NCBI RefSeq assembly: GCF_000002985.6
Contig: NC_003281.10
Location: forward strand, 13,392,001-13,456,000
Reading direction: 5' to 3'
Length of the DNA: 64,000 nt
Origin: Caenorhabditis elegans
Lineage: Eukaryota; Nematoda; Chromadorea; Rhabditida; Rhabditidae
Positions 23,901 through 64,000 of the stretch are shown here, piece by piece (positions within the stretch are counted from its first letter, which is position 1; the number at the start of each line of letters is the position of its first letter). The translations under genes were made by a program, and so were the position numbers. The notes below the pieces were generated by a model. That model had not been told where the DNA came from. It ran no database searches and worked only from the letters and a program-made list of their open reading frames with translations.

Positions 23901-26900
23901 TTGATCCCAATTATTTTTGAAATTTCAGTTTCGGCTCGATATACCAATGAGAGAGCACAGTGTAAACTAGTTTTCATAGTTCTCACGGCGACTCCAATCA
24001 CTATATACCAATAAAAAACTGAAATTTCAAAAAAAAAGGAAACCCAAGAAAAGGAAAGTGAATAAAATTCACTGTAATACCTACCAATGCCAAGAGATTT
24101 TGATCCCAATTATTTTTGAAATTTCAGTTTCGGCTCGATATACCATTGAGAGAGCACAGTGTAAACTAGTTTTCATAGTTCTCACGGCGACTCCAATCAC
24201 TATATACCAATAAAAAACTGAAATTTCAAAAAAAAAGGAAACCCAAGAAAAGGAAAGTGAATAAAATTCACTGTAATACCTACCAATGCCAAGAGATTTT
24301 GATCCCAATTATTTTTGAAATTTCAGTTTCGGCTCGATATACCAATGAGAGAGCACAGTGTAAACTAGTTTTCATAGTTCTCACGGCGACTCCAACCACT
24401 ATATACCAATAAAAAACCGAAATTTCAAAAAAAAAACGAAACCCAAGACAAGGAAAGTAAATAAAATTTAATGTAATGCCAACCGATGACAAGCGATTTC
24501 GATCCCATTTTTCAAAAGAAACATAATAACTACCGACCACACGGTGAAAAACAAGCAAAAAAACAAATGATTCTCTCTTAGCCAGCTGACACTACTCTAA
24601 ATTATCATTGACTTTTCTCCAATCTGGCTCGTGTCCTTCAACCAGGTCCTTCGCAACAAGAAAAAATCTCAAAGCGGCAATCAAGCAATACTCAGAATCT
24701 TTGCCAGCTGGACTCTACAGGCATGATGGATAATATAACTAAATCCTAGTTTGATTTTCTTCGATACATAATTCATTGAAAAATAGGTCAGAACTTTCCC
24801 GCCAAGCTAATACCCATGAGAGAGCAGTGTAAACTAGTTTTCATAGTTCTCACGGCGACTCCAATCACTATATACCAATAAAAAACTGAAATTTCAAAAA
24901 AAAAGGAAACCCAAGAAAAGGAAAGTGAATAAAATTCACTGTAATACCTACCAATGCCAAGAGATTTTGATCCCAATTATTTTTGAAATTTCAGTTTCGG
25001 CTCGATATACCATTGAGAGAGCACAGTGTAAACTAGTTTTCATAGTTCTCACGGCGACTCCAATCACTATATACCAATAAAAAACTGACATTTCAAAAAA
25101 AAGGAAATTCAAGAAAAGGAAAGTGAATAAAATTCACTGTAATACCTACCAATGCTAAGAGATTTTGATCCCAATTATTTTTGAAATTTCAGTTTCGGCT
25201 CGATATACCAATGAGAGAGCACAGTGTAAACTAGTTTTCATAGTTCTCACGGCGACTCCAATCACTATATACCAATAAAAACTGACATTTCAAAAAAAAA
25301 ACGAAACCCAAGACAAGGAAAGTGAATAAAATTTAATGTAATGCCAACCGATAACAAGCGATTTCGATCCCATTTTTCAAAAGAAACATAAAAACTACCG
25401 ACCACACGGTGAAAAACAAGCAAAAAAACAAATGATTCTCTCTTAGCCAGCTGACACTACTCTAAATTATCATTGACTTTTCTCCAATCTGGCTCGTGTC
25501 CTTCAACCAGGTCCTTCGCAACAAGAAAAAATCTCAAAGCGGCAATCAAGCAATACTCAGAATCTTTGCCAGCTGGACTCTACAGGCATGATGGATGATA
25601 TAACTAAATCCTAGTTTGATTTTCTTCGATACATAATTCATTGAAAAATAGGTCAGAACTTTCCCGCCAAGCTAATACCCATGAGAGAGCAGTGTAAACT
25701 AATTTTCAAAGTTCTGACGGCGACTCCAATCACTCTACACCAATATAAAACTGTCATTTCAAAAAAAAAAGACACATATTTTTTCCAACATAATAACGCC
25801 CGACCACGTGTTGAAAAACAAGTGAAGGTGGAACTGGCAAAATATGAATGGATGAATCTCCGTCAGCCACCGTATTCTCCTGACACTGCTCCAAATTAAT
25901 TCTTGGCTTTCTCCGATCGGCCACTCGAATGAGTGTCGAGCCTCGAGAACCACTATCGGAATACCCCTCGAGCACAAATATCCAGCTCTTGTCGACGTAG
26001 AACGATGATGTCACCAGTACGAAACTTCAACCGAAGTTTCATCATGTCTGGAGGTTCTTCTACTTGCAAGCTTGTGAGCGGAGGTGCTGATAAACTCATC
26101 TTCAAGTTCAAGTCATTCAACAACAACTTCGCACCAGCCCCAGCTGATGCTACTGATGCTCGTGCTCAATCATGGAAGTTGTGAGCATGGGGTTAAAACC
26201 TAATGTAAGGGCCAGGATAAACTAGTTGGAAAAAAACGAAAAGAATGTGAATAAATCACAAAGAAATTATGAAATATAGAACAATATTTCACAATAGCGT
26301 GCTTTCATAGAAGGCCAGCAGGCGCGCGAAGGCAGGCGAAGGTCGCCGCAAGGCGGGCGAGGCAGGCGTTTATGCGCCTGCATGGAGCTCGACTTCAATC
26401 CAAAATCCGTCGTTTCCTCCTGTTGAACTGCTCACGGAGCCACCCTTCCAAAAAAACGTCCAAATTGTTGCATTGTGTGTGACAGTCCCGAGTTGCTAAA
26501 ATTTCAGATACTTATTAAAATGCTCCGAAATATCTTTAAATTGACCTTCAAAGCACGAAAAACAGAACTCTCTTCCGAGCCAAGCGAGCCGAGATTCCAG
26601 GGATCTTCTCGGGACTTTCAATGAATAGAGTTCTCTTCGGACCACATCGACAACAGTCGGACATGAGTCGGACAGTCGGAATTACTGGCAAGAAGGTGGT
26701 CACTGAAAATAAATGAAATGTCTGTCGCAATATGTGAGAAGAAACAAAGACATGTTTGCAACTTTGCGGAGCTACAAAAAATTATTTCGATAAAAAGTTT
26801 TCAAGCATGGAAAAGAAAGGTGCAGAAAATATGGAAAGAGAGAAGACAACGAGGATTTGAAAGCAAAAAAACAATTTTAAAAAAACTCTGCACCGCAAGA

Positions 26901-43786: not shown

Positions 43787-44930
43787 TTATTTTTTGAAAT
43801 TTCTACAAAATAAATAGAGCTCTGCACTATTGTCACGACATGCTGTAGGTTTGACCGTTTTGACAGTTGAGAATCGATCGGAAAGTTCACGGACGAACTC
43901 GGCACGTGCACTTCCATCCCAAATCTGGAAAAAAAAAATTATAGTCAAGAAGAATTATTATTAATTTCAGCGAACCTTGCACAAGTAAACTCCATTCTTC
44001 ACTAATTCAATTTCATTTTCCACTGAAAATAATCGAAAAACGGATCGGCACAGCTCGATAAGCCTCAAGTGATCCGTAGCGTTATCTCCAGTCGGATTTG
44101 GTGCCATATCACTTAGAACAACATCCACTTGCCGATGTGCTAGTTTTTCTCGAATTTTCAGTTTCACTGCTGGATCGGTAATATCGGAGAGTGATAAGAT
44201 GTCGGCACCGCGGATTGGGAGAACATTCTGTAATAATTTGCATTTTGAAATTGAAATGCAATCGCGCTCCAATGCAAGATGAAAAAGCTCCGCCCCCGGA
44301 ACGTGGGTCTCGTTAGGTATTTGGCGGCGAAACCGGAAATTCAAAAATTTTAAATTACTTTTCAAGCATTTTCCGTCGTGTATTTGTTCTTTTATTTTAA
44401 TAATTGTAAGCCAAAATGGGTGACAAATGAAAAAAAAATTATTCACTTTTAAACAAACTACTTAAAATTCTTGAAAACTAGCGAAATCGGCAAAAAACAA
44501 GAAAAAACTTTTTTTATTTCCGATTTTGCAGTCAAATACCTAACGAGACCCAACTTTTGGGGGCACAACGTTTTTTTTTCTAAAACTAATTTTAATAACT
44601 TACTTGTAAATCTACACCCGATGCATATCCATTTGGACACTTCTGCACAACTACTTGAAGCCATGAGCCAGGTGCACATCCAATATCGATTACAGTACTC
44701 TCCGGTTTCAGAAATTTGAATTTCTCATTAATTTCGATTAATTTGAAGGCGCTCCGTGCTCGGTAATTGTGCTCACGAGCTTTAACCGCAAATTCGTCTG
44801 TTGATTGCCGTTGAATATATCTGAAATTTAAATTTGAAAAATAAATTTATATTTGATGGGGGAAGAAAACTCACTTGTGCAAATTTCCTTGTGATTTTTT
44901 CGTTGAGAACATCCTGACACTTTTGAACAT
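43787..44930 (-). CDS. FtsJ/RrmJ-type rRNA 2'-O-methyltransferase (mitochondrial MRM2 type)
   Basis: SAM-dependent 2'-O-ribose methyltransferase; the MRM2 branch methylates a uridine in the A-loop of mitochondrial large rRNA. Exons 44930-44875, 44820-44604, 44227-43976 and 43924-43787; 220 residues. The basic N-terminus (MFKSVRMFSTKKS) suits a mitochondrial presequence. Motifs: YRARSAFKLIEI with the first catalytic Lys, SAM-binding DIGCAPGSWLQV, DVVLSDMAPNPTG (catalytic Asp), and LCKIWDGS (second Lys). The final Glu lies in the SAELYLFCRNFK strand. The AATAAA poly(A) signal overlaps the stop codon. The CIAO2-type gene ends 207 bp upstream and PAM16 starts 124 bp downstream on the same strand, consistent with a three-gene operon of housekeeping, partly mitochondrial genes. 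Intron 2 holds a dispersed repeat plus an inverted half-copy. Confidence 0.94.
44228..44603. repeat. Dispersed repeat with inverted half-copy in methyltransferase intron 2
   Basis: TTGAAATTGAAATGCAATCG then CGCTCC and GTGGGTCTCGTTAGGTATTT lie at about 44246-44322. The complementary AAATACCTAACGAGACCCAA lies at 44535-44555. These are two ends of one palindromic element that nearly fills the intron. Confidence 0.75.
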
Positions 44931-45136
44931 TTTTTTTCGAATTCTTAATCACTAATTTTTCAACAAAAAAATAAATTCCCTGAATCTAGATACTTTTCTG
45001 GTGATTTTTAAATCTAACCTATGAAAATGAAAATTTCGACAAAAAAACTAAATAATTTTAAACACGTTTTTATTCGAAACCTGATAGATAGGCAACTTTT
45101 AATATCACAAAAACTTTAATCTGGATCTTTTTTTGG

Positions 45137-47525
45137 TTATTCTGGAACTCTGAGGCATTCGTTAACAGCGTGCATTAGTCCTTGATTTTCCATTGCAGCA
45201 GCTACTCGTTCCTAAATGAGACATTTTGAATTTATGTTTTAAAAATTAACTTTTTGAGGGGCTTGCTTCTAAACTAAAAAATACAATGTTTTAAATTTTT
45301 TTTGAATTTTTTTATTGGTTTATTCGGAAACTTCGGTCTTATTTTCTATACTTTAAAATTTAATTTCAAAAAATTTCGAAAATAAAAAATGCAAAGTATA
45401 AAAATAGACCGAAATCTCCAAATAAACCATTAAAAAAATTAAATAATTTTTAAAATGATTTTTTTGCCATTTTGCAATCAAAAAATTCAAATTAATGTTT
45501 TCAGACGGTTTTCAGCATAAAATATTAAGAAGAAATGTTGAATTATCGAATTTTGGCGAATTTTAAAGTTTTAGTGATTTTTTTAAATTTTTGCGCAAAT
45601 TAATGCCCGAGTTTTGAAATTACGTTTTTTGGCAAATTATGATTTAAACTTTTTTTTCAAATTTTTTAGACATTTTCTAGCAAAAAAAAAAGCTAATTAC
45701 ATAGTTTTTAAAAATTTTTAAAGTCGTTATTTACTATTGATTTTTCCTCATTTTACATATTACTATAGTTCGAAACAGTTTTTTGCCAATTTTACAGGCG
45801 TTTTTCAGCAGAAAAGTCAATTTTAGAGTTTTTTTTCGATTTTTTTGCAAAAATAAATGGTTTTTAAATTATATAGATTTTACTATTTTCATCAAAAATT
45901 AAAAACTTACCTTGTCGGCCAACTGCCTGTTAATTGATTCTTCCGTAGAATGTGATCCTGGAGTGATTGAAACGCTAACTTTAACTTTCGGATGCAAAGA
46001 TCTCAAAAGTTTCACTCGAATCGCCAAACCGATTAGTGTTGCCATACTGCAGTGTGGAATGGTTGGTGTGAAATTCACCTGAAATTTTTTTTCAAATTTA
46101 AAAAAAAATTAATTTTAAATTACCAATCAATAATTTTCTCGCAATATTTTTCATTAAAATTTAGTGATAGAAGGTAGAAAAAAAATATTTGTTTTACCTG
46201 AAAAAAGTTTATTTCAGTTGGAACAATTGGGAAACGCTCAAGAATTGTCTGATATTTGGAAAAATCAATTGTTCCAATTTAAATAAAAGCAAGATAAATC
46301 AACTTTTTTTATCAATTAAATCAGTATATTTTGATTAAATATATCAGGAGAGCCCTGCATTGCTGAGACCAATTTTTAATATTTTTTCAAGCGCATTTTT
46401 TTCACTTTTTTCCAATCAATGCTGTAGAATTTCTGTTCAAAGATTGGAAGCTTCTTGGAAATGTTTTGTAAAAAATTGTAAAAAATTTTAAAGTTATTTT
46501 AAAATTAAAGTTACCTTCACAAAGGTCTCTTCTTCGTCGATAAACACTTTGATAAGCTCCTCTTGAACCACATTTAACTGCTCGAGAGTATATGGATGCT
46601 CTGGATCGTTGATATCTCTGATCAGATCGAAAATCTCCCACGAATCGATTGGATCTTCGACGCTTTCATCTCTGGAATCATATTTTTTGAATTAAAAATA
46701 ATGTAGTGGAATTGAGAGCCAATTTTTACAAGCGAAACAACACAAAAAATTCATTTTTCGATGTTTTCTATTTTTTCAAGGAAAATCAAAAACTTAAAAA
46801 AAACTCAGCAGAAAATTCTTTTTTTTTTTAAATTTAATTTTGTTTAAATAAAAACGTCTTCTAAACAGAAGAACAATTATCAGAATTTTTAGCTAATTTT
46901 AGAAAAATCGAAAAAAAATTCGAAATATTGGAAAATCGAAAAATCTAAAAATCAAAAAACGGAAAATTTTCGTTTTTCGATTTTATTTTTTCGAAAATCT
47001 AAAAACCGACACTTTTGACACAGATGTTCTGGAGCTTCAAAGTGTCAAAAATTCATCTCCTCTTCCATTTTACTGGAATTTTTTATTTAAATGTTTGGAT
47101 TTCATGCGATTTTTCGTATTTTATCGTGTTTTTGTTAAATTTATTATGTTTTTCGTTTAAATAACAGGTAAAAAGCGTTTTTCTTGATTTTTCTGTGTTT
47201 TCAATTTAATAATCGAAGTAATTACGTTTCAAACTATAAATTTTCATTTGAAAAAATACGAAAAATGGCTGAAAATTCGAATTTTCAATTTATTAATTCG
47301 CTGTTTTTTTGCGGAATTTTTTAAAAATTCTGTACTTTATTTATATAAAAACTTAACCGTGAAAATATGCTCTTTTTGAATTCAAAGTAAACTTTTAACG
47401 ATTAAAACTTGATTTTTGCGTTAAAACCCTCCAAAAACCAACCTTTCAGTGCCAGTAACAGGTCGATGACGTGGTTTTGAGTCGAAAAGTGTTGGATTTG
47501 CATTGTCGAGACGTTCTTGGCCCAT
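45137..47525 (-). CDS. CIAO2/MIP18-type cytosolic Fe-S assembly targeting factor (DUF59)
   Basis: Homolog of CIAO2B (MIP18/FAM96B), part of the CIA targeting complex that delivers iron-sulfur clusters to cytosolic and nuclear enzymes such as DNA polymerases and helicases. Exons 47525-47443, 46671-46515, 46078-45911 and 45211-45137; 160 residues. Visible family motifs: [17 protein letters not shown] at the N-terminus, [20 protein letters not shown], then LEQLNVV, the reactive-Cys motif [20 protein letters not shown], and [20 protein letters not shown] with a C-terminal ECLRVPE. All are close to the human sequence. An AATAAA signal lies near 45067. It is the first gene of a probable operon with the methyltransferase and PAM16. 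Its introns (771 and 435 bp) are AT-rich with no recognised content. Confidence 0.95.
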
Positions 47526-47920
47526 TTTTATGTGATATAAGCCTGGAAATTAAGCTGGAAATGGAAAATGACGAAAAAATATCGGTGGCCTAGTGGCCGT
47601 GGAAGAAAAAACAATACATATGTAGTTTTTGGCGAAAATTTAAATTTGAATAATTTTTTGTTGCAATAATTTCCAGAGATATAAAAATTTGAAAAATACT
47701 TTGAGATTTAAAATCAAAAATTTATAGTTAAATTTTTAAAAAATGTTTATTAAATTCGATTCAAAATTTGGAAAATACAAGAAAATAAGGCAAAAAATCA
47801 CAAATTAAAACAATAAAACCGCGTAAAAAATGGAATTTGGTCGGTATGTGTGTGATGAGAGTGAGATGACGAAACGAAGCACGCAAAATGTACAAAAAAT
47901 TGGATAAAAAATCAAAAAAA
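47526..47920. other. Gap between cua-1 and the CIAO2-type gene
   Basis: 395 bp of AT-rich DNA containing the cua-1 3' UTR and the upstream region of the next minus-strand gene. No other gene seen. Confidence 0.4.
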
Positions 47921-50900
47921 CTACACAATGAGATCCTCTAAATCTGATCCAACATTATCCAAAAGTCGTTGCTTTTTCGAGCTCCCAGAGCTCACGATAC
48001 TTGTTGTTGAGCCGAGCAGTGAGCCAACTTTTGAGCTTAATATTGATAATTTTGAAGAAGCAGCACCTCGAAAAACAGCCGAATCGTCTAGGCCTCGATG
48101 CACTTGAACTTGGAAAGAGCCCGATTCGAGGAACTTCTGATGTCGTTTGAAGCTCGTCGTATAGAGATTTGCAATCGTTGGTTTTCGGAAGTTTTTGAGT
48201 AAAAGTGAAGAAGAAACCACGGAGACACTGGAAAGAGCCATTGCAGCTGCAGCCATCCATGGTTGAAGCATGAAGCCAAATGGGCGGAATACACCTGGAA
48301 ATTTGGAAAATTATTAAAAGTGGATTGTTTTTTGTTATTGGAAAAATAGCGTTTTCTAGAAAAACAATATTTTCTTCTTTTTTTTTCTCAACGAAAATCA
48401 ACGAAAATTTCATTAAATTTTGAATTTTTCAAATTTTCCAGACAAAAGTAGAAAATTTCCGTTTTTTTCTCGAAAAATAGCTTCAAACTTAAGCTATTTT
48501 TCTTTTTTTTCAGAAATTTTTTTTCTTAAGTACTTCTCAACAAGATAAACCGAATTTGATAAAATTTTGAATTGTTTAAAAATTTTCTAGACGATTTTTC
48601 GTTTTCCGGGTATTCGAAAAGTCGAAAAATTTTGATTTTTTTTGTTCGAAAAAAAATTACCCGGGTTTTCGAAAAATAGCTACAAATTTTGACCAATTTT
48701 CTTTTTTCAGAGAAAATATAATTTTTAAAGTTTTTCTCTTCAAAAAAAATTGATATTTAAAATTTCAAATTAAAAAAATGTTCTAGACATTTTTTTTCAA
48801 TTTTTTCGTTTTTCGGAAAATTGAAAATTTTTCGACATTTTTAACACTTTTTATTCTACCATTTGAAATCGGTTTTTTTGTTCGAAATAACTTTTTTAAA
48901 ATTCACCTGCAGCAATCGGAATTCCAATCGCATTATAAATGATTGCAAACAAAAAGTTCAATCGAATCCTTCTCGTCGTCATTTTCGATAGCTTAATTGC
49001 TCCAACAACATCCACAAGATCATTTCTAACAAGTACGATTCCAGCTGACTCAATTGCCACGTCACTTCCTGCAGCAATTGCGATACCAACATTGGCTTCT
49101 GCGAGAGCCGGCGAGTCGTTGACACCGTCTCCAACCATTGCAACTTTGTTTTTGTATCCTTTCAATTGCTTAATCTTTTGTTGCTTTTGATTTGGAAGAA
49201 CTTCTGCGAATACTTCATCAATTCCGACTTGTTTCGCAGTTGATTCTGCAGTTTTCGAGTTATCTCCTGTGAGAAGTACGACACGAAGACCCATTTCACG
49301 TAGAGTATAGATTGCAAGTGATGCTTCTTTTTTAACTTGATCAGCAATTGAAATTACAGCAACCACTTCCGCTGAAATAGTTAATTTGTCAATAACTACA
49401 GCTGTTTTGACAGACGAAATTGACTTTTTTCATTAAAAAAAAAGGATTTTTTCAGTGGAGTAAAAGAATTTTTAAAGCAAGATCCAAGAGCAAGATCCAA
49501 GACCAAGAAAAATATACTAGTTTTTTTTTGGTTTTTCTTTGGAAAAAATGACTTTTTTGAGTTTTTGGACCAAGAAAACAGTTTTTTTTTCAAAAATTGT
49601 AAATTTTACTTGGAAGGAGAAATACAATTAAAAAGTGTTTTGTTTTTTTTTGGTCCAAATTTCAAATTTTGTTAAAAACGGCGAACATTCAGCAAAAATC
49701 TTTAAAGGCAAGGTAAAAATTCCCTCCAAAAATAAACGAATGATTCATTCAAATTCAAAAGAGTGTACGCCTTTAAGGATAACTGTAATTTATTGAAGAA
49801 GCGAAAAGTGAAAAAGGAATACACAAAATTTTGGGAAAAAACTTTAGCAACTACAGTAAGAAAATTTGTCGTGTCGAGAACCGGGTACCGTAGCTTTCGA
49901 ACAAAAACTGAAAAATTTTGGTTCTGAACACTGAAATTTTTAAAATTAGGTGTTAATATTGGGAATTTTAGCGAAATTTTATTTTTGAGAAATATTTTAA
50001 TTTTCCAATAATTTCCAGTCACTTCTTGATTTTTAAATAAATTTGCTTGTTTTTTTTATCGTTTTCCGATTTTTTTTGATTTTCTCTGAAAATCAACGAA
50101 ACAAAAACTTACCGTTAATTGCACAAATAACCGAAATGTGTCCTTTTCTCTGTTCTTCTGAAAGTGTCATTTTCACAACTTCCGATACGGGAATTCCGTG
50201 TCTTTCCATCATTCTTTCGGTTCCAATCACAATGTTCGCAGTGTCCGGGTTTGGTTGGCTAACTTGAAATTATATGAATTTATATTCATTTATAAATTAA
50301 AAAGACTACCTTCTTTACTAGAAACTTGAAGTAAATTGACTTCGGTTCCAGGAATCGTGATAGTTTGACCATCAGGAAGCCTTGGAATTTCACAAGTAGA
50401 TCCAGAAAGTGCCAAAGACGAGAACGACTGCCGAATTGAGTCAATTCTACAGGTAACACCATGTCCAGCAGATACATGGAATCGGGAAGTGTTCGGCCAA
50501 GTTGGCTCATTGAGAAGCTGAAAAAATGGATTTTCTTGTTTTTTTTCAGTTTTTTTGGCAAAAATTGATTTTTTTTTGTATTTTTTTTTGGTTGGTATGA
50601 TGAGAAAATCGAATTTTTTTTGTTTTTTTGTTGGCAAAAATGGATTTTTTGTTTTTTTTTTTTTGGTTTTTTTTTGTTTCTTGATTTTTTGTTTTTTTTT
50701 TCGGCAAAATAAATTTCTGGTTTTTTAATAATTTTTTTTTTGCAAGAATAGATTTTTTTTTTGGTTTTTTTTGGTTGGTATGATGAAAAAATCAAAAAAC
50801 TTTTTTTTTCCGTTTTTTTTTGGAGAAATCCGATTTTTTGTTTTTTGATCCAAGTTTGAAACAATTTTTTTTCGTTTTTTTGGTCGAAATATTTTACTCT

Positions 50901-53900
50901 CTTTACTCTTAAAATACCTGTTTCGCAAAAGCCGCTACCGCATTTCCAATCGGATGCTCCGACAAAGCTTCAGTGGCTCCGGAGAGGAATGTGATAAGTT
51001 TTAGTGACATTGTAGATGGATTTACAAACGACGCAATTTGAACTACTCGTGGACGTCCTTCGGTGATTGTGCCAGTTTTGTCGAAAACAATTGTGGTTAC
51101 CTGGAAAAAAGAGTGATTAAAAAATTTGAGATTTGATAAATATTGCTTTTTTTGTTCATATTAAAGATAATTTTGTTAATGTTTCGATTTTTCTTTTTTA
51201 TTTATTTTTCCCTGAAAAATATCGAAATTCGCGGTTTGAAAAATGGATCTTTCTTTATTTCTCGATTTTTTTTCGTTTTTTCGTGCAATTTCTGATTTCA
51301 CACTAATTTGGATATATTATATCTTTAGTGGCTTCGTGAAATTTTAAAAAAATTATTTTCTGATATTTACGAGTGAAAATAAAAAAATGGTACTCTAAGA
51401 AACAAGGTTTTTTTTCTGGGAAGTAAAAACATCTAAATTTTTGTTTTTCGATGTTTCAAAATTTCGGTTATGTCTCTTCTATTTGAATTTGAAATAAATA
51501 TGTTTTTTAGTGTTGTTAATATGAGAAAATGTTTAAAATTTTGACAGTGACATCCAAATTTCTAAATCCGAACTCACTTTATGTACACTCTCCAATGGTT
51601 CGCCTCCTTTAATCAAAATACCATTTGCTGCTCCAACTCCAGTTCCAACCATAACAGCGGTGGGCGTTGCGAGACCCAGACTACAAGGACATGCAATTGC
51701 AAGTACAGTAATCGCAGCTTCAAATGCGATTTTCAAGGCTTCTTCGAATCGAAGACCGGGTGGCTGGAAAAATACATGATTTTGATTAAAACTCGGGCTT
51801 TGGCTTTAAATTTTAATTTTTCAAATCGAATTTGCAATATGCAATAAAAATTTTTTTTTTTAAAGCTGATCTTGGAAAAGCCAAGATCTTGGCGGGCTTT
51901 AATTTGGGAAATTTAGCAGCGAGGAACGAAATTCTCGATCTTCTTATTTACAGCTCTTTTTGAAAATTTTCAAAAGCACGACAATCAATTTTTAAAGATC
52001 CAACTGAAAATTTGCTCATGAATTTCTTTCTTTGCTGCTAAATTTATAATCATAAATTCACGTTTTCGAGCATTCTGAATCCAACTTTATAGTATTTAAT
52101 CTATTTTTCCCTTACCAAATTAGCATTTCTCGCCGAATTGTACTCAATATAGATCCATACTCCCAACGTGAACAACGATAATACAATGACAAACGGGACA
52201 AAGTATCCGGCAATTTTATCGGCAAGTTGTTGAATTGGAGCACGATTCGTTTGAGCTTCTTCGACGAGACGGACGATTTGTGAGAGTGTAGAATCATTGC
52301 CAACGTGTGTTGCCTTCACAATTAGAACTCCTTTTTGATTCACCGAGCCACCAATTACAGTACTTCCTAGAAATTATTGTTGTGAAAAATAACTTACAAT
52401 TCGGTTTTGAACAGAAATGTTCTTTTTTTGGATTTTTTAATGACAAAATAATTTTTTTGAATTTAAAAAATAACGAAAAAAGTTTATTTTCGAAATATTT
52501 ATACAGTCGTGAGCATGACTGTAGATTTTTCGAAAAAATAGTGAGCAAAAAACGCGAGAAATTTCGACATGAATGTTTAAATTTTGCATTTTTTCCAAAA
52601 AAATCACACTGATAATTATAATCAAAAATTTATAAGTTCTTCTAAATAGCGTTTCAAACTAAACATGTTTTGTTTTTTCGTGTATTGGCTAGAAACATTT
52701 TTTTTCTCGTTTTCCAAATGAATAATTTTTTTCTCAAACAGTTGAAAATTTTAAATTTTTGGTGATAAATGTTCGATTTTGTTATGGTTTTGCAGAAATT
52801 TAAACGAAAAATGTTTCTTTTTTTTTTCGTTTTTTGATGGAAACATTGATTTCTCGCTTTTCTTCAAGAAAAACTAGGGAAAACGCGAAAATTTGGAAAT
52901 TTTTTCTAACTTTTTGTTTGTAGCTTTCAAAAAAACGTTTAAAAATTTTTTTTGAAAAACAGACCGTAACCGTTTTTTTTGTGTTTTTTGAAAAATTTCA
53001 GGAAATTCCGAAAAAAAAATTTGCAACAAAAATCCGAATTACCTGGTTTCTTAACGACAGGCATCGATTCTCCAGTTATAAAACTCTCATCAACCGAACT
53101 TTTTCCATCAACTACAACTCCGTCGACTGGAACTTTAGCGCCAGGAACCACTTTAATCAGGTCATTTCTTTGCACTAATTCAATATTTATTCCTTTTTCA
53201 GACGTTAACCGTCCTTCCGAATCCATTGTGACAAGTGTAGCTTCTTTTGCTTGTAATGACATAAGTTTCGATAAAGCTTCAGATGTTTTCCCCTTTGCTT
53301 TATGTTCCAGCATTCTTCCAAGTGCAATAAATACAATTAACATTGGTGGAACATCGAAAAATGTCATTGGAGACGACGGCCATTTGAAAATGATTGCGAG
53401 GAGAAGAACTACGATTGAATAGGTGTAGGCAATGGTTGTGGACAGCATTATTAGTACATCCATATTTGCATTTCCATGTTTTATTGCTTTCCATGAGGCT
53501 ACGTAGAAATATCGACCGCCAAAAATCTGCAATTTTCTTATTGTCAATTTTTTAAAAAACTAAGAAGAAAATATTTTAAATTTTACCTCCAGAACAGGGG
53601 TGTCGGTTTTTAGATTTTTTGAAAAGCGAAAAAGTTCGTGTTTCTCCGATTTTTAGTTTTTCAATATTTCGAATTTTTTTATAGACTATTCTAAATAAAA
53701 TTCTCTTAAAATTTGTATCATTAGTCTTATTTTTAGAGAACATTTTTATGTTTCCTTATGTTATTTTCCCATTAATATACACGAAATTAAATAAAAAAGC
53801 GAATTTTATGGTTTATTTTCTAAATTTTTTTCCGATTTTCCCGGAAAAAATTTTAAAAAAACGAACGAAATTTATTCAGATTTTTCGATTTTCCATTTTT

Positions 53901-56900
53901 TTTTCCTAAAAATTATAGTCGATTTTTTTTTGCTTTTACTTCCGTGTTTTCGGAGGAAAATTTATTTTTTCGCAATTTTCGAAGAAAAATTTTTATAACA
54001 AAAAAACAAAATTTTAGTCCTAAAATTATACCCGAATTTGTTTTTATTGGGTTTTTTGAAAAAAAAAAATTTTTTTCGTGTTTTTGGCCAAAAAATTATT
54101 TTTTCAATTTTTGAAAAAAAAGCAAAAAAAGAAAATAAATTTATTAGCCTGTCGATAACTGGAAAATTCATAAAATTTTAAGTTTAAGCTCTTTTTTCTT
54201 AAAATTATAATTGAATTTTTTTCCTTTTTTTCGTGTTTTTCATGGGAAAATGTTATTTTCAGAATTTTTCAAAACATATTTTTTTGGTAACTGAAAAATA
54301 TTTTTTGGCTACTCCAAAAAAACTTCTTTTTATTGGTGTAAAACTGAAAATTCTCACCTGAACCGGTGTGCAAAGACATAAAAGCAGAAAGTTGTCAAGT
54401 GAAAGAGCTGGAGTGAAAATTGGTGTTTGTTTGTCTGGATGCATTGGCGTTCGGAGAATCCAGTGAAAGATTATCATAATTATCATTACAGGGACTCCGA
54501 ATATTAATGCGATGAAGAAAGTGTTACGCCATCTGAAAATACCGTTATTGTGAATTTTTGCTTGAAAATAGTCGGAAAAAAAAAAATATATACCAGCCGC
54601 TGACCGCGCCTACGGCGCGGGCAACGACTGGCACCATTAAAAGTATTTGACACACATACCTTCAATCACTCAAAAAATTTCTCATCATGAAAAAAACTTG
54701 ACACACTTAAACGCGGTTTACTGGCACTGTTACACGTATTTTTCTACGACATGCATGTTTCGAAAATTCACAGACAGTATGAAAACGTTCTGTTACTTTC
54801 TGACCAAGACAGTAACCTTACAATACCACTACAGTACCTTGACATTATCCTCCACCGACTCCTAACTCAATACCTCTTCAAAGGACGAAATGCCAATTTT
54901 TCCAAAACTACAGTAACCCTACCGTATACCTACAGTACCCCTATAGTACCACTACAGTACCTTGACTTAATCCCCCATCAACTCCCAAATAACTACCTCT
55001 TCTAAAGCTCTAAGCTCAATTTTTCGGAACATTCCAGAATTTTCTCGATTTTTCTAGAAAGTTCTAGAACATTCCAGAATTTTCCCGATTTTTCTAGAAA
55101 GTTCTGGAACATTCCAGAATTTTCCCAATTTTTCTAGAAAGTTGTGAAACATTCCAGAATTTTCTCGATTTTTCTAGAAAGTTCTGGAACATTCCAGAAT
55201 TTTCCCAATTTTTCTAGAAAGTTGTGAAACATTCCAGAATTTTCTCGATTTTTCTAGAAAGTTCTGGAACATTCCAGAAATTTCCCGATTTTTCTAGAAA
55301 GTTCTGGAACATTCCAGAATTTTCCCAATTTTTCTAGAAAGTTGTGAAACATTCCAGAATTTTCTCGATTTTTCTAGAAAGTTCTGGAACATTCCAGACT
55401 TTTTCCGATTTTTCTAGAAAGTTCTGGAACATTCCAGACTTTTCCCAATTTTTCTAGAAAGTTCTGGAACATTCCAGAAATTTCCCAATTTTTCTAGAAA
55501 GTTCTGGAACATTCCAGACTTTTTCCGATTTTTCTAGAAAGTTCTGGAACATTCCAGAAATTTCGCGATTTTTCTAGAAAGTTCAGGAACATTCCAGAAT
55601 TTTCTCGATTTTTCTAGAAAGTTCTGGAACATTCCAGACATTTCCCAATTTTTCTAGAAAGTTCTGGAACATTCCAGAAATTTCCCAATTTTTCTAGAAA
55701 GTTCTGGAACATTCCAGACTTTTCCCAATTTTTCTAGAAAGTTCTGGAACATTCCAGACTTTTCCCAATTTTTCTAGAAAGTTCTGGAACATTCTAGAAA
55801 TTTCCCAATTTTTCTAGAAAGTTCTGGAACATTCCAGACTTTTCCCAATTTTTCTAGAAAGTTCTAGAACATTCCAGACTTTTCCCAATTTTTCTAGAAA
55901 GTTCTGGAACATTCGAGAATTTTTTCGAAATTTCCAGAAGATTCTAGATTTCCAGAATTTTAGAATTTTCAGAAAATTTAAATTTCCCGCAAAAATATTT
56001 TTCACAGAAAATTTAAATTTCCCGCCAAAATATTTTTCTCAGAAAATTTCAATTTCCCGCCAAAATATTTTTCTCACAAAATTTAAATTTCCCGCCAAAA
56101 TAATTTTTTTCAGAAAATTTCAATTTCCCGCCAAAATATTTTTCTCACAAAATTTAAATTTCCCGCCAAAATAATTTTTTCTCAGAAAATTTCAATTTCC
56201 CGCCAGAATTTTTTTCTCCGAAAATTTAAATTTCCCGCCAAAATTTTGGGGGTTACCCCGGTGGGGCTCACCACGACGGGTCTCACCACGGTGGGTCTCG
56301 CCACGATGGGTCTCACCACGATGGGTCTCACCACGATGGGTCTCACCACGGTGGGTCTCACCACGATGGGTCTCACCACGATGGGTCTCGCCACGATGGG
56401 TCTCGCCACGATGGGTCTCACCACGATGGGTCTTACCACGATGGGTCTCACCACGATGGGTCTCGCCACGATGGGTCTCGCCACGATGGGTCTCACCACG
56501 ATGGGTCTCGCCACGATGGGTCTCGCCACGATGGGTCTCACCACGAAGGATGACAGACCCCGCCCACAATTCTCAGTGACTTTGGGTGTGACGTCACAGA
56601 CTACAAAGACTACATAGACTACAAACTATGGAACAAACGGAATTATTTTTTTATATATAAGTAATGATAAGTAATGATATATATTGAAATTGAAAATATG
56701 ACTTCGACAGATTTTCTAATTTCTTAATTTTAATTACCGCGATTATTTCTCTAAGTAAGCTACGCCCTTTTTTCTGTGCCGCACTCTGGTTTTCCTTAAT
56801 TTCGACAAAAATTATGAAAATTATTTATTAAAAAAGTATATTTAAACCCGATATTTGGAGAATAATACATTTTTGATTCATTTTCTGTTCTGAAAGCGTG

Positions 56901-59900
56901 GTAATTAAAATAATTTGATTAGCCAAATTGAATATTTTTCCAAAACCAGTGGGTTTTTCCTAATTATTTTTTTAAGTCACGATTTAAAGGTGCAGTAGAG
57001 GCAAAAAAATTTTTTGCTTCAAATGACAGAAAATGCACCCAAAGAACCGAATATAACTGTAAAAAAATTTTTTTTTAATTTCTAAATTTTTTATGATTTT
57101 TTTTAATTTTTCAAAAATCAAAGAAACGGCTGAATAAACTTGAATTTAATAAATGAGTGACGTCATTTTTTATATGTTCGCGTTTTCTGGCTAAATTCGT
57201 CGGTTTTTCTCAATTTTTTTTTCTATATTTGATTTGAAACACCGTTTGTCAATTATTCAACCACTTTTCCATAAAAAAAAACTTGATAACCCTAAGGAAA
57301 TTGCCAGAAATGGCAAAATTGGCCTAAAATCCGCAATTTAACATTTATTATTAATTTTTTTTTCAAAATAACTATTTTAAATAATTGACAAACAATGTTT
57401 CAAATCAAATATAGAAGAAAAAATTGAGAAAAACCGACGAATTTAGCCAGAAAACGCGAAAATATCAAAAATGACGTCACTCATTTGCGCGGTAATTCAA
57501 ATTTATTCAGCCGTTTCTTTGATTTTTGAAAAATTTTAAAAATCATAAAAAATTTAGAAATTTTTAAAAAAATTTTTTACAGTTATATTCGGTTATTTGT
57601 GTATATTTTCTGTCATTTAAAGCAAAAAAATTTTTTGACTCTACTCCACCTTTAAAAAAACACCAATTCTCACTTTTTAACATCGTCCGAATGATCCAAC
57701 CGCTTCATTTGATCATCTCGAGTAGCTAAATCTGCGGTGAAACCAAGTGATTCGACAACATTTATAATATCCCTCGGACCAATAACCTGTGGAGAGAACT
57801 CGACAAGAGCCATTGATGTAGCAATTGAGACATTACACGAGTCAATTCCCGATTTTGAAAGTACATGGGATTCTATTCGATTCGCGTCGCTTTCTGTGGA
57901 GAGATTGCCGATCTGAAATCATTTTCATATAATTTATACGGATTAAAAATTCGATAACTCAGAAATTGCCGACTGAAAATTTTTACTGAAAATTTTATAA
58001 CACAGAATTGGGGAGCTTTTTAGGTTTTAGAAAAAACCGCATTTCTTCACTAAACTTTTCGAATTTTAAGCTTGGTAATTACCGAATTTCCTAAAATTTT
58101 CGAAAAAAAAAAACATATATTGCCAGTCAATATTTGAAAAAAAATTCTAGAGAATTTCAAAGCCTATGCAAATTGCCGATTTGCCGATTTGCCTAAAAAT
58201 TTCAATTCCTGCATTTTGCCGATTTGCAGGAAAAAATCGTTTGCCGCCCACTATGCCATAGAATAAATTTTTTTTTGATTTTTTTTCAATTTTTCGAACG
58301 AATTTCAAAAAATGTCGAAATTAAATCATCCATTTGCGCGGGAATTTAAAAATTGTTCAGCGGTTTGAACTTTTTTGCTAAACTTTCTCAAAAAATGATA
58401 TATTTTTGGGCAATTTGAGTATGTTTGGGAATTCAAAAAAAAAATGTTTTTGGTACCAAAATCCAAAACTCACAATCAACCGTATCTTGCTATAATTCGG
58501 ATTAGCTCCCATAGAATCCAGAAGAGTAGCCTTATATCCAAGTTCTCCCGTCATATGTTCCCGAATCGCGTCGGAAGATGTTACCCGACCATCATAAATG
58601 ACTTCAGCTTTCGCAGCAATCAGTGCAACCACAATTGAGTGAACTCCTTCGATTTTTGAAATATTTCGTTCAATGTACTGTACACACGAAGCACACGTCA
58701 TTCCTTCCACTGCGAATGTGCATTTTTCGAGATGATCCGATGAGCCCTGAAATTAATCATATTTTTAATAAAGATTCAAATAAGGATTTGATAATTTTAG
58801 AATAATTTATGAAAATTTCACTACAAAAAATCACAAAAAATCATATTTTCAGCGAAAATTTTGAAAAATCACTGAGAAACTCAGTTTCAGAGCGAAAAGT
58901 TCAAAAAATAGCTCAAAAACTCATATTCCCAGCAGAAAAACTGCGAAAATTCACTGAAAAATGTTTTTTTTTTCATTTTTTGGGCTAAAAATACAAAAAA
59001 TGTCAGTTTTTCATTAAAGGTGGAGTAGCGCCAGTGGGGGAAATTGCTTTAAAACACGCCTATGGTACCACAATGACCAAATATCATGATAAAAAATTCA
59101 AAAAAATTTTCTAAATTTTATATGATTTTTTGAAAATTGAAAAAATCTCAGTTTTTGCCTAATTCCAATTTGAATTACCGCCAATTGGAGTTGTTCGATG
59201 GAGCGCGCTTGCACGTTTTTAAATTTATTTATTTTATTTTTTTGTTATTTTCCATCGATTTTTAATGTTTTTGGTGTATTTTTGCTTGAATTTTAGAGAA
59301 AAAAGTCAAGATAAATGCAAATTTTCAATTAAAAAGCACGCTTGCAGGCGTAAAAATTACAAAGTAACGATTTTAAACGATTTCGAACCTGAATTAATTA
59401 ATTTCACTGATTTACGCCTGTAAGCGTGTTTTTTTATCGAAAATTTGCATTTATCTTGACTTTTTTTCTCTAAAATTCAAGCAAAAATACACCAAAAACA
59501 TTGAAAATCGATGGAAAATAACAAAAAATAAAATAAATAAATTTAAAAACGTGCAAGCGCGCTCCATCGAACAACTCCAATTGGCGGTAATTCAAATTGG
59601 AATTAGGCAAAAACTGAGATTTTCTCAATTTTCAAAAAATCATATAAAATTTAGAAAATTTTTTGAATTTTTTTATTATGATATTCGGTCATTGTGGTAC
59701 CATAGGCGTGTTTTAAAGCAATTTCCCCACTGGCGCTACTCCACCTTTAAATATCTTATTTAAAAACCAGAAAATTCAATTTTTGCCTGGAAAAAGTTTA
59801 GTTTTTTTTTTTTTTGAAAAAAATAATACAACTTTTTGGTCGAGTTGTGAAAAACTTTCCGACATTTTTTTAAAAATTAACTTCTATTTTTTTTATTTAT

Positions 59901-62900
59901 CAAGTTTTAAGGTAACGTATTTAGAAAACTATAAGTACTCTATTTATCACAAAAAATATTAACCTCTTTCGAATATTTCACTCCATTCAGCTGTAACTCT
60001 ACTTTTCCATCAGATAAGTCAACTGTTTTAAGGGGACTTATCGATAATTTTGTGGTAGATGCTTTTTGGGGTTCCACTGCGGCGATTTCTGCAAAAATTA
60101 ATTTTGAAAAGTGTTAAACAACACATTTTAAATCATACCTTGATCAGTAATCAATTTACAATCAAATCCCATATCATCAATGGACTCGGCAACTGATTCG
60201 CCGTTCCATTTCTCGGAATTATAGTCGACGGTTCCTGAAATTGCAGTCGTTGGCAAAATAAATTTTGAATTAAGAAAAATCAAATTTAATATTATGCAGA
60301 CGCGAAATTTTGTGTTAAAAAAGGTACATTTCGGTAATTGGGAATAGTTTTTGGTTTGTTTTCTTTTTCAGAACATATTTATATATTTTAATTTTGAAAA
60401 ATATTTTTTGGAGGCAGCACCTTTGCAGAATCATAATAATTTGGCAAGGAAAATTACCTTGTTTCTGTTCCAAACTAACAACAATCTTCACAATTCCATC
60501 TTTTGAGCCTACAGTATCTTGAATATTGTTCACACAAGCATGGCAGGTCATTCCCTCAATAGAGACGATTGCTCTACGAATTTTGGGTTTTTCTGCCATT
60601 TGTGTAGGAGGTTCTGCAAAAAAAACGTACATTAGATTTTGTGGAAAATCAGGTATAGATATGAAATTTGAATGATAGAAAAAAAATTATCAAAATTACT
60701 GTTTTTTTATTGGAAAAAAAAAGTTTTTTCCTTGGATTCCTTGGATTTACTTTCCTTGGATTGAAAAATAAAATTTGCCGGAAAACTTCAAAAAAGTAGC
60801 CATAAACTAATTAGAAATTCAAAAGTTTATTGAAATTTATTAGGATTTTCAAATAATTTTTATATTTGATCAATACGATTCTTTCTAATTTTCTGAAGAA
60901 AAAAAAAGCAGAGTTCTATAAAACAATCAATTTTCATTGAAAGCACGTAGACAACCCACTTTCGTAAAAATCTAATTTCACTGGAATCATTGTCTTCCTT
61001 ATCACTATCGTTTTTTTTTGTATTTCTAATCAGTATCAGCGAGCGCGCAAACCAACTTTTTCGCACTGCAGAAGACGAGCAAATTTATGGGTTAGAAAAA
61101 ATGCCTTAGAATATTTAACAATGACGAAATTTTCTGGCACCGTGAGGTTCAGAATTTAGATGTTTTTTTAAACGTTTTTCTCTCTGTAACAGTTGATTTT
61201 TTCAATGTTCAAAAATTTATGATACTGTAGCTGAAAACTTTTGCTCTCTTCATGGCCAAGGGCGTCATTTTTCGATTTTTCGATGTTTCAAGGAGGAACG
61301 AAAAACGAAAAAATTTCGATTTTCTGGAAAATTGAAAAAAAATGTTCAGAAAATTAACCATAAAATTCGATTTTTTTAAATCTAATTTTCTTTACATATA
61401 TTGGTGAGAATTTCAAAAAACAAGAACGATGATTAAAATTTTAAGCTAATTTCACTGCAACTTTTTCCTCACGAGGGACGAGGCAAAAAGGTTTCTAGGC
61501 CATGGCCGAGTCCCCGACAAATTTCAGCGGCCATTTATGTTGCTTTGTTTTCCGCGTGTTTTCTTTTGTTTTGCACCAATTTTTCCCGTATTTTCTTATT
61601 AAAACTAATAAATAAATATTTTTTGCAGATGCTAAAACAATTTCCCAGTGAAAAAAGTATGTATTGAGTCGGTAAGTAGCGGTGAAAGTGGTCAATGTAA
61701 TATGATGGATTACGGAAATACAAAACCTAAACTTTTTCCCAAGCATGATACATATGCTGCTTAAATGCTGAAACTACCTGATTTTCATAACGAGATCGCT
61801 GAAAAAGTTTTGAGGTTTTCAAAATTCAACTTTTTTGGTGAAAAAGTAGAGATTTTCGCACAAAATGTTGAATTTTAAAAATCTCAAAACTTTTTCAGCG
61901 GTCTCGTTATGAAAATCAGGTAGTTTCAGCATCTAAGCAGCATATTTATCATGTTTGGAAAAAAGTTTAGGTTTAGTATTCCCGTAATCCATCATATAAC
62001 ATTGACCACTTTCACCGCTACTTGCCGACTGAATACATAATTTTTCATCTGGAAATTATATTAGCATTAGCAAAAAATATTTATTTATCAGTTTTAATAA
62101 GAAAAAACGGGAAAAATCGGTGAAAACACAAGAAAACAAAGCAAGTACAAAATGTCGTTAAATGCGGTGTATTGTGTGCAAACACCGATTTTTCGCATTT
62201 TTTCTCGGCCCCCGTTTGAAAAAAGTTGCAGTGAATTTTAGAAAAAATCGAAACTTTTCGATTTTCCAAAAACCAAAAAATCTAGAAATTTTGCCCAAAT
62301 TAAAAGTATTTTTATGTTGAAAAAACTGGTATCGTAAAGCGTTTGCGATAAGGTAAAACGAAAAATAAACTGAAGTATTTGTTTATTTTTTTTCTATTTT
62401 TCTATAAACCCTCCTCGTTAACAATCGAACTGATCTTTACCTTTTTTCAAAACTTTGCAATCAAAACCCATATCATCGACAGCTTCAGCCACTTTCTCAG
62501 CTGTCCATTTTGTAGTATCAAATGAACATTTTGCATTTTCTTCTTTTAAATTCACTTGGATACTATGAATTCCTGGCTTCGCTCCAATTACGTCTTGAAT
62601 ATTTTTGACACAGGAGTTGCACGTCATTCCTCTGGAAAATGTGACTATTTTTTGTTAAAAATTTAGATTTTGAACAGCTAATTTGCAGAATTTTTCTTTT
62701 TTTTTTGTTGTATAAATCGAAAAATTAATCATTTTTAGTTAAAAAATCGAACAATTTAAAATAAGTGCAGAAAAATATGTTTTTAAAAAAGTTTTTCGAA
62801 AATCTTATCGGAAAACATACAAAACCTCAACCTTTAAGTTAAAAATTATATATGGAAATGCAGCAAAATGCCTTTAGATCTGAAAATAATATTTATTTTT

Positions 62901-63260
62901 GTTGAAAAATTAGTTTAAAAACCCCAAATGGGGCCTGAGAGTTCCCGTTTTCAAAAAAAAAATTGAAGGAGACTGTCCGACCCTATTTGAGCTCTTTTTT
63001 CACTGAAAAATTAATTATTTTCAGATCTATGAAAACTTTTAATCAACAGTTTTGCCAAGCAAAAAATCCAAATTTTAAAATACTTTAAATTCAATTTACT
63101 TAATCTCCAGCATTGTTTCTTGTACATTTCCATCCGTCTTCGGTGCTCCAAAATCCACCAAAAGTTGAATATTTTTCGACGGAGACGGACGTGGTATTGA
63201 TGATGTTGATGGACGTGATGGAAGCGGCGAACCGTCGAGAAGACTCACATTTTCCGACAT
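47921..63260 (-). CDS. cua-1: Copper-transporting P1B-type ATPase (ATP7A/ATP7B ortholog)
   Basis: ATP-driven Cu(I) pump of Golgi and secretory or lysosome-like compartments that loads cuproenzymes and detoxifies copper. Sixteen exons (63260-63100, 62631-62441, 60613-60458, 60234-60139, 60088-59964, 58746-58474, 57912-57674, 54532-54358, 53526-53043, 52366-52116, 51763-51578, 51100-50918, 50517-50310, 50262-50113, 49371-48907, 48294-47921); 1,238 residues. Three N-terminal heavy-metal domains carry GMTCNSC, GMTCHAC and GMTCASC, fewer than the six of human ATP7A/B. Then come the actuator TGES, the transport site [12 protein letters not shown], the phosphorylation site FDKTGT, nucleotide-binding SEHP, and the hinge [10 protein letters not shown]. 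The C-terminus after the last membrane helix is Ser-rich. TTATTTCAG at 63308-63316 (minus) is a trans-splice-type acceptor about 48 bp before the ATG. Introns are unusually full of repeats: an HSE satellite in intron 8 and palindromes in introns 2, 6, 8 and 14. Confidence 0.96.
49755..49900. repeat. Palindromic repeat (GTCTCGACACGAC family) in cua-1 intron 14
   Basis: Contains TGTACGCCTTTAAGGATAAC TGTAA near 49764 and GTCGTGTCGAGAACCGGGTA CCGTAG near 49869. The left terminal motif is not preserved, so this looks like a partial copy of the element at 3013-3195. Confidence 0.65.
55025..55930. repeat. Heat-shock-element satellite: ~22 copies of a 40-bp unit
   Basis: The unit reads GTTCTGGAACATTCCAGAAT then TTTCCCAATTTTTCTAGAAA. 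TTC and GAA alternate every five bases (TTC-TA-GAA-AG-TTC-TG-GAA-CA-TTC-CA-GAA-TT-TTC). Because 40 is eight times five, the lattice stays in phase from unit to unit, with one weak pentamer (AAT or GAT) per unit. This is the binding pattern of heat shock factor. Variants such as GTTGTGAAAC alternate in the left third, suggesting an earlier 80-bp or 120-bp expansion unit. Confidence 0.93.
56262..56550. repeat. 15-bp minisatellite (CACGATGGGTCTCAC)
   Basis: About 19 units of CACGATGGGTCTCAC or CACGATGGGTCTCGC in tandem. Because 15 is a multiple of three, several frames stay open on both strands and produce false pentapeptide-repeat proteins. Confidence 0.95.
56985..57655. repeat. Long inverted repeat with TTTAAAGGTGGAGTAG-type ends in cua-1 intron 8
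   Basis: The left arm starts TTTAAAGGTGCAGTAGAGGC and contains GAATATAACTGT. The right arm is the near complement, ending CTCTACTCCACCTTTAAA. The arms are about 300 bp long with a short centre containing ACATTTATTATT. Likely a palindromic MITE. Confidence 0.85.
59017..59752. repeat. Long inverted repeat, TTAAAGGTGGAGTAG family, in cua-1 intron 5
   Basis: The left end is TTAAAGGTGGAGTAGCGCCA and the right end CGCTACTCCACCTTTAA. The arms (about 59017-59380 and 59390-59752) are almost perfect complements, including ACACGCCTATGGTACCACAA and its complement. Same terminal motif as the element at 56985, with a different interior. Confidence 0.9.
61495..62165. repeat. Long inverted repeat in cua-1 intron 2
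   Basis: CTACCTGATTTTCATAACGA GATCGCTGAAAAAGTTTTGA near 61777 is mirrored near 61880-61925. The arms extend outward through TCCATCATA/ATGATGGATTAC, AGTAGCGGTGAAAGTGG and TTTTCCCGTATTTTC to about 61530 and 62150. Confidence 0.85.
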
Positions 63261-64000
63261 TTTGTGTACTCGATAAATTCACATGAGAATTTGGGAAATG
63301 ATTTGTTCTGAAATAAATTGTAAAATTAACAAAAAAAATACTTTGAGTCAGGGCTGTTGCAAAAAAAATTTCGACCAAAAAACGAAAAATCGAAATTTTC
63401 AAAAAAAAAAAACAAAAAACAAAAAAATCAATTTTTGATTTCAAACGGGACAAAACGGAAATTTTTCATATAATATTTGAAATTGAACGAGTGGAAGGTT
63501 TTTCGTTCTTCTTTGTTTAATTTTTTTGCTGAATCAGTGGTTTCAAAAAACCAAAAAATCTATTTTTCCAACAAAAAAAAAGCCCTGCTTCGAGTCGTAG
63601 AAATAACTGAAATTTGAACGATGTATGTTTTTTGTCGATTTTTGATTTGAGTTCATTTCTGAGAAATATTGCTGTCAAATATTCTTTAAAAACTTAGGCT
63701 TTTTCAAATTTGTTAAGTTTTTTTTCTTTTTTTTTCCTTTTTTTCAAATTAAAAACCAAGCGACTTTTAAAAAAATGTTTTTAACATTTCATATGAAGAT
63801 TTTTAATTTAAAAAATAATTTTTTTGTCCAAAAGTCTCCAAATATAATTTTAAAATGTAGAAACGACTAAAAGTGAATGTAGTAGCCCCGGCGAAATGGC
63901 CTAGGTTTCAGCGTGGTCCCCTCTCGGTCACGCCCACATTTCCACTCGTTTTGCATCAGATGATGACGTCAATCTATTTTCGAGAGAGAGTGGAGAAACC
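63261..64000. promoter_or_regulatory. cua-1 upstream region
   Basis: The acceptor TTATTTCAG lies about 48 bp from the cua-1 start. Beyond it is AT-rich DNA with long A/T runs and, near the right edge, a less AT-rich patch (GCCCCGGCGAAATGG, TCACGCCCAC, GATGACGTCAA). No gene recognised. The ACGTCA core is a CRE-like match but unsupported by anything else. Confidence 0.4.

Follow-up and report, generated by a model that had tools for sequence, protein, structure and literature searches.

We found that the dense array of heat shock elements (HSEs) in an intron of a Caenorhabditis elegans copper ATPase gene is almost certainly the middle of a complete non-autonomous Helitron. The array lies in the window, the 64,000-nucleotide stretch of DNA that was analysed (C3:13392001-13456000); coordinates below are positions in the window unless a contig is named. 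As an overall explanation, we consider it likely that a HelitronY4_CE-type element inserted into the cua-1 intron and brought with it an array that recruits HSF-1 and has little effect on the normal cua-1 mRNA.

The array consists of 22.5 copies of a 40-bp unit at 55026..55923 (TRF, period 40, 92% matches). Within it, TTC alternates with GAA at 5-bp intervals in a single register, with 84 of 87 TTC and 58 of 61 GAA triplets between 55025 and 55930 falling in one phase each. These results bear out the earlier note on this DNA where it described about 22 copies of a 40-bp unit, with TTC and GAA every 5 bp and the register carried over from unit to unit. The same interval comprises 181 five-base slots, among which 142 are perfect, 27 carry one mismatch and 12 carry two. 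In 1000 dinucleotide-preserving shuffles of the interval, the number of perfect slots averaged 13.3 (sd 1.9) and reached a maximum of 21, under a counting rule that gives 141 instead of 142 for the array itself. The density of HSF pentamers that the note had pointed out is therefore real, but its "continuous" lattice of "150 consecutive" pentamers is not: no perfect run is longer than 7 slots, and allowing one mismatch in each slot raises the maximum to 31. In 22 of the 23 units, a single slot out of eight has AAT or GAT in place of GAA, and further slots have been lost (GAC 8, TTG 3, TTT 3, AAA 3), which keeps the perfect runs this short. At least three alternating nGAAn pentamers are the sequence criterion for a functional HSE, and 34 non-overlapping perfect trimers of this kind fit within the 0.9-kb array.

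The cua-1 lattice is not unusual in the C. elegans genome. Across 100,286,401 bases in 7 contigs, we counted 2231 + 2317 five-slot and 1038 + 1000 seven-slot lattice matches, compared to 1 + 0 and 0 + 0 for a control pattern read backwards; the window holds 40 of the five-slot and 10 of the seven-slot matches. With thousands of matches across the genome, the idea that the lattice is unique to cua-1 was rejected. Among the matches listed, those to the 40-bp unit extend over ~8 kb at C5:7917004-7924922, apparently a far longer lattice than the cua-1 array.

We also compared 252 units from the window and 19 other loci, two of which share a flank; the window's array was covered in full and the others in part, and the units, which are not independent of one another, were picked by similarity to the window consensus with at most 10 mismatches. 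The weak slot reads GAT in 151 units, AAT in 74, GAA in 25, and GAC and AAA in 1 each. Column variation was 0.041 in the HSE cores (0.027 excluding the lost slot) vs 0.080 in the spacers, and 0.030 when the core mask was moved by one base. Constraint on the HSE cores is thus not clear, and purifying selection on them was rejected as proof of function, since the shifted mask varies less than the full core mask.

Helitrons begin with TC after a host A and end with CTRR before a host T, create no target-site duplication, and carry a small hairpin some 10-12 nt before their 3' end. The window element (54593..56667, minus strand, 2,075 bp) runs from a 5' end at 56667 to a 3' end at 54593, both common to other copies, and on its own strand reads A|TCATTACTT...CTGG|T. 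Its 3' terminus (54593..54620, minus strand) consists of the terminal CTGG (CCAG on the plus strand), 11 nt, and the 7-bp hairpin CCGCGCC-TAC-GGCGCGG; the next host base on the minus strand is T. The remainder of the 3' domain (54621..55025, minus strand) contains short CTACAGTACCC repeats at 54908-54961 and adjoins the 40-bp array. On the other side of the array lie a 35-bp satellite of TTTCCCGCCAAAAT type (55966..56244), also present in an autonomous Helitron, and 19 copies of a 15-bp satellite (56262..56546), followed by the end of the 5' terminal 182 bp (56486..56667, minus strand). The right-hand terminal 10 bp occur twice in succession, so that the right end is either 56667 or 56677. We rejected a free-standing satellite as an explanation, the array being enclosed by defined Helitron ends. 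A structured RNA family was likewise set aside, as an Rfam search of 44000-64000 returned no match.

The same ends were sought in 38 loci (L010-L028 and L030-L048), retaining matches that came to 8 bases or less from the left end or that, on the right, extended to base 80 or beyond of the terminal 100. The left end is present in 32 of the 38 loci, which correspond to 25 places with 24 distinct flanks; a host A (plus strand) precedes the element in all 24, and the element starts with CCAG in 23. The right end was recovered in 17 loci with 16 distinct flanks, 14 of which read AATGA and then a host T. Of the other two, L013 has its terminal bases doubled before the T, and in L023 similarity ends 10 bases early. 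In all 13 loci with both ends, the opposite flanks share 0-2 bases (2 in the window), and therefore no target site was duplicated. Two copies ~16 kb apart, L044 and L045 (C5:6089252-6089680 and C5:6072842-6073275), have an identical left flank, and because of this shared flank we attribute them to a duplication of host DNA, not to two insertions.

Sequences related to the window element are abundant. The left domain (54592-55026) recurs in at least 21 other places, with 89-97% identity across 400 bp or more, and, where the locus extends far enough, adjoins the same 40-bp and 35-bp arrays; other parts of the element also have many genomic copies. The Helitron Rep profile PF14214 matches the genome 13 times, and none of these 13 Rep-helicase matches falls within the window. 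To assess kinship with an autonomous Helitron, we used the 5' end, in a 2,001-base stretch at locus L091 (C2:1968300-1970300) that lies 5' of a PF14214-matching gene and is, by coordinates, the ZK250.9 Helitron in Table 2 of PMC9918286. The 5' terminal 182 bp of the window element share 91% identity with the corresponding end of this autonomous Helitron, down to the same final base. The element thus lacks a Rep-helicase gene and has one end in common with an autonomous element, as expected for a non-autonomous Helitron. The 35-bp and 15-bp satellites follow in identical order in both. The autonomous stretch has a few HSE-like clusters that separate its satellites from the Rep gene, the position at which the window element carries the 40-bp array; TTCnnGAAnnTTC occurs 4 times in the 2,001 bases. 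A local match of 33 nt at 91% between L091 and the array edge may signal kinship as well, but it is suggestive only, because any two HSE lattices look alike.

Two further features were observed in these comparisons. Immediately after an autonomous-type 5' end (..AAGTAATGA) at ~C2:1969834 in L091 comes another Helitron-like 3' end (CCAGCCGTTCGCACGCGCC-AA-GGCGCGTG), so that the minus strand reads CTGG|TCATTACTT, a head-to-tail Helitron junction. Part of the window element's 3' domain (54809-55025) is ~82-84% similar to large arrays with matches every ~123 bases, among the best candidates C5:3434630-3441083, C3:6567565-6572208 and C1:1371563-1373466; the piece may have turned into a satellite or been derived from one.

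Both the 40-base and the 15-base repeat published for HelitronY4_CE (PMC4039745) are identical, up to rotation and on the minus strand, to the 40-bp and 15-bp units of the window element. Dense HSEs and Helitron ends are further likenesses, and we found no distinctive difference in this comparison of published repeat units and ends. Helitron1_CE, an autonomous, Rep-helicase-encoding element that is heat-induced via HSF-1 (PMC6765114, PMC6927752), resembles the window element in the 5' terminal 182 bp (91%) and in how the 35-bp and 15-bp satellites are ordered; its Rep-helicase gives way, in the window element, to the 40-bp array and the 3' domain. PMC9918286 describes a C. elegans 40-nt satellite family, Fam_5_40_94, and assigns the satellite at III:8344363 to HelitronY4_CE; our match at C3:8344420-8344992 is the same place. 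That paper treats the family as a transcribed satellite, and its main text mentions neither heat shock nor HSF. A literature search for TTCTAGAA as a satellite did not find the sequence. Nor did the literature searched contain RcS5, an older repeat family that we take to be heat-shock-like.

We take the host gene to be cua-1, and the copper-ATPase matches agree with this name. The intron containing the element, as predicted from sequence, spans 54533..57673 on the minus strand, with a GTGAG donor at 57673 and a TTTTCAG acceptor ending at 54533. The upstream exon (57674..57918, minus strand) encodes the last heavy-metal-associated domain (PF00403, E 1e-6) and matches the copper ATPase chains 7xuk at residues 574-648 (whole-sequence E 2.9e-37) and 7si3 at residues 572-645; its high-coordinate edge is the end of an open reading frame (ORF), not a mapped splice site. 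The downstream exon (54262..54532, minus strand) encodes the first transmembrane region and matches 7si3 at residues 640-705 (E 7.3e-6); it starts at 54532, and its low-coordinate edge is likewise an ORF end and not a mapped splice site. The first whole codon of the downstream exon encodes a W that aligns about two residues past residue 645, where the upstream match to 7si3 stops. On this basis, we consider the exons consecutive. Joining donor and acceptor gives an in-phase product, DVKK|WRN, and an intron of 3,141 bp. Nine of the ten window pieces tried as exons match Pfam families related to P-type ATPases (HMA, E1-E2 ATPase, hydrolase), one of them (51536-51805) at 0.1 bit under the cut-off. 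Pfam gave no match for the tenth piece (54262-54609), whose place in the gene follows from its similarity to a solved structure; all three pieces tried against copper-transporting ATPases of known structure matched. The location of the array inside a copper-ATPase intron, as the earlier note had it, is thereby confirmed.

The element makes up 2,075 of the 3,141 bp of the intron, about two thirds, and has the same minus-strand orientation as the gene. Its end lies 60 bp, and the array edge 493 bp, from the splice acceptor. Of the ten pieces tried, the metal-binding exon located farthest upstream is 62421-62654, ~6.5 kb upstream of the array. The downstream exon starts with ATGGCGTAA, a two-codon reading frame (ATG GCG TAA), and the first in-frame Met after a splice at 54532 is residue 16, within the first transmembrane region. 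The same intron also contains a palindromic repeat at 56983-57656, with arms at 56983-57116/57523-57656 (87%) and 57151-57260/57377-57486 (95%), which is MITE- or foldback-like.

That Helitrons spread heat-shock elements and draw Caenorhabditis genes into the heat response is already known. PMC6927752 reports that Helitrons contain 61.4% of genomic HSEs (11,527 of 18,766), that heat raises HSF-1 and Pol II at Helitron HSEs, and that 556 heat HSF-1 summits have Helitron HSEs. The same analysis counts more than 100 HSEs in eight HelitronY4_CE copies and 96 in the copy upstream of nhr-247, a gene induced 254-fold in N2 and 3.2-fold (p 0.16, not significant) in an isolate without the Helitron copy. 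The heat induction of Helitron1_CE RNA depends on HSF-1 (PMC6765114). Binding does not always mean activation, since HSF-1 on the Helitrons upstream of fbxa-215 accompanies compromised Pol II elongation in heat, and deleting these Helitrons gives phenotypes (PMC12062965). The link that the earlier note drew between the lattice and Helitron HSEs is consistent with the HSF-1 and Pol II recruitment published for the class (PMC6927752), but the array is not free-standing; it belongs to a complete non-autonomous Helitron. The note's suggestions of an effect on cua-1, of a tie to copper proteostasis and of stress-body seeding found no support in the material analysed. For cua-1 itself, the main texts of PMC6927752 and PMC6765114 contain no occurrence of the name, although the supplements may differ, and our literature search for cua-1 with heat shock and intron found no report.

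We propose that a rolling-circle transposon of the non-autonomous HelitronY4_CE type inserted between an A and a T in the cua-1 intron, where it has the orientation of the gene and the next exon follows 60 bp downstream. The array would be the Helitron's amplified stress-promoter module, because it is located where the autonomous element has its promoter HSEs and transposase gene, and it would be kept because it travels with the element. In heat, the array at cua-1 would probably recruit HSF-1 and give weak Helitron-initiated transcription, while normal cua-1 mRNA would probably be little affected. By analogy with the published Helitrons, we regard HSF-1 binding at this copy in heat as probable; that the element has no notable effect on cua-1 dose also seems fairly likely. 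The published association with heat-induced genes counts genes that start no more than 2.5 kb downstream from a bound HSE (PMC6927752), and cua-1's own promoter would fall outside this range because of the metal-binding exon ~6.5 kb upstream of the array. The prior odds that the element affects cua-1 transcription, splicing or isoforms are small. What we have here is probably a selfish HSF-1-recruiting array with a small local effect, and only a demonstrated change in the pump gene would make the cua-1 copy anything but ordinary.

Several other explanations were weighed against this one. The element could be an inert satellite-bearing transposon remnant in silenced chromatin, with no HSF-1 occupancy that matters. 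Repressive marks are higher and Pol II is lower at Helitron-HSE genes than at other heat genes (PMC6927752), transposons are common in introns, making up 13.8% of C. elegans intron sequence (PMC8896005), and the HSE slots drift, as the weak slot shows, which 22 of 23 units have lost; against inertness, HSF-1 and Pol II gain in heat across the Helitron class (PMC6765114, PMC6927752), and we consider this reading unlikely but quite conceivable. The earlier note had also suggested that the array acts as an HSF-1 sponge or seeds a nuclear stress body. Thirty-four trimers in 0.9 kb would suit such a role, but the cua-1 copy accounts for only 40 of the 4548 five-slot matches in the genome, which makes a sponge role for this single array unlikely. 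The 40-bp-unit matches over ~8 kb on C5, among those listed, point the same way, and any effect would be a property of the whole family and not of the cua-1 copy; we find the proposal scarcely credible.

The array could also alter the output of cua-1 by serving as a heat enhancer within the intron or as an alternative promoter, for instance through a heat-induced, Helitron-started transcript spliced to the exon at 54532. The element's orientation and the short distances from its end (60 bp) and the array edge (493 bp) to the acceptor would favour this, as would the enrichment of HSF-1-bound Helitron HSEs upstream of heat-induced gene starts (PMC6927752). A leader spliced to 54532 would, however, first meet the two-codon frame ATG GCG TAA, and the first in-frame Met, residue 16 inside the first transmembrane region, would give a product that lacks every metal-binding domain and may not fold. 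We regard an enhancer or promoter role as doubtful, and its particular version in which HSF-1 on the array starts an intronic transcript and a leader trans-spliced at the acceptor yields a copper-ATPase message without metal-binding domains as very improbable. The element might instead act through cua-1 RNA, its strong folding and splicing-linked heptamers altering splicing or retention of the intron. Its sense RNA contains GAATGTT 23 times and CCATCGT 15 times, both over-represented in introns adjoining alternative exons of multiply spliced genes (PMC4039745), and the sense RNA of a 300-nt stretch of the array has a folding energy of -115.4 kcal/mol, giving a z of -11.6 against 200 dinucleotide-preserving shuffles; the element end is again only 60 bp from the acceptor. 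The strong fold, however, follows from the palindromic lattice itself, PMC4039745 found HelitronY4_CE in only one of its multiply spliced genes and drew no conclusion, and the two cua-1 isoforms in the review PMC11083455 differ at the first two exons, not at the element's intron. An effect on splicing or retention is thus improbable in our estimate.

Should the trans-spliced message exist, heat would, through a jumping element, have gained control over the catalytic half of a copper pump. At cua-1 the insertion is a clean case within a gene and not in a promoter, has the orientation of its host and ends 60 bp short of the splice acceptor; were it active, intronic Helitrons would be shown to give rise to gene isoforms that depend on heat. 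This question was not taken up in the main text of the 2019 analysis (PMC6927752), from which the word intron is absent.

Elsewhere in the window, a 198-199-bp tandem repeat forms three blocks within 22653-25372 (22653-23245, 23548-24507 and 24810-25372; 92-96% matches, TRF). A degenerate array of CCTAAG hexamers, with 21.7 copies at 69% matches (TRF), occupies 18181-18309 and resembles an interstitial nematode telomere repeat.
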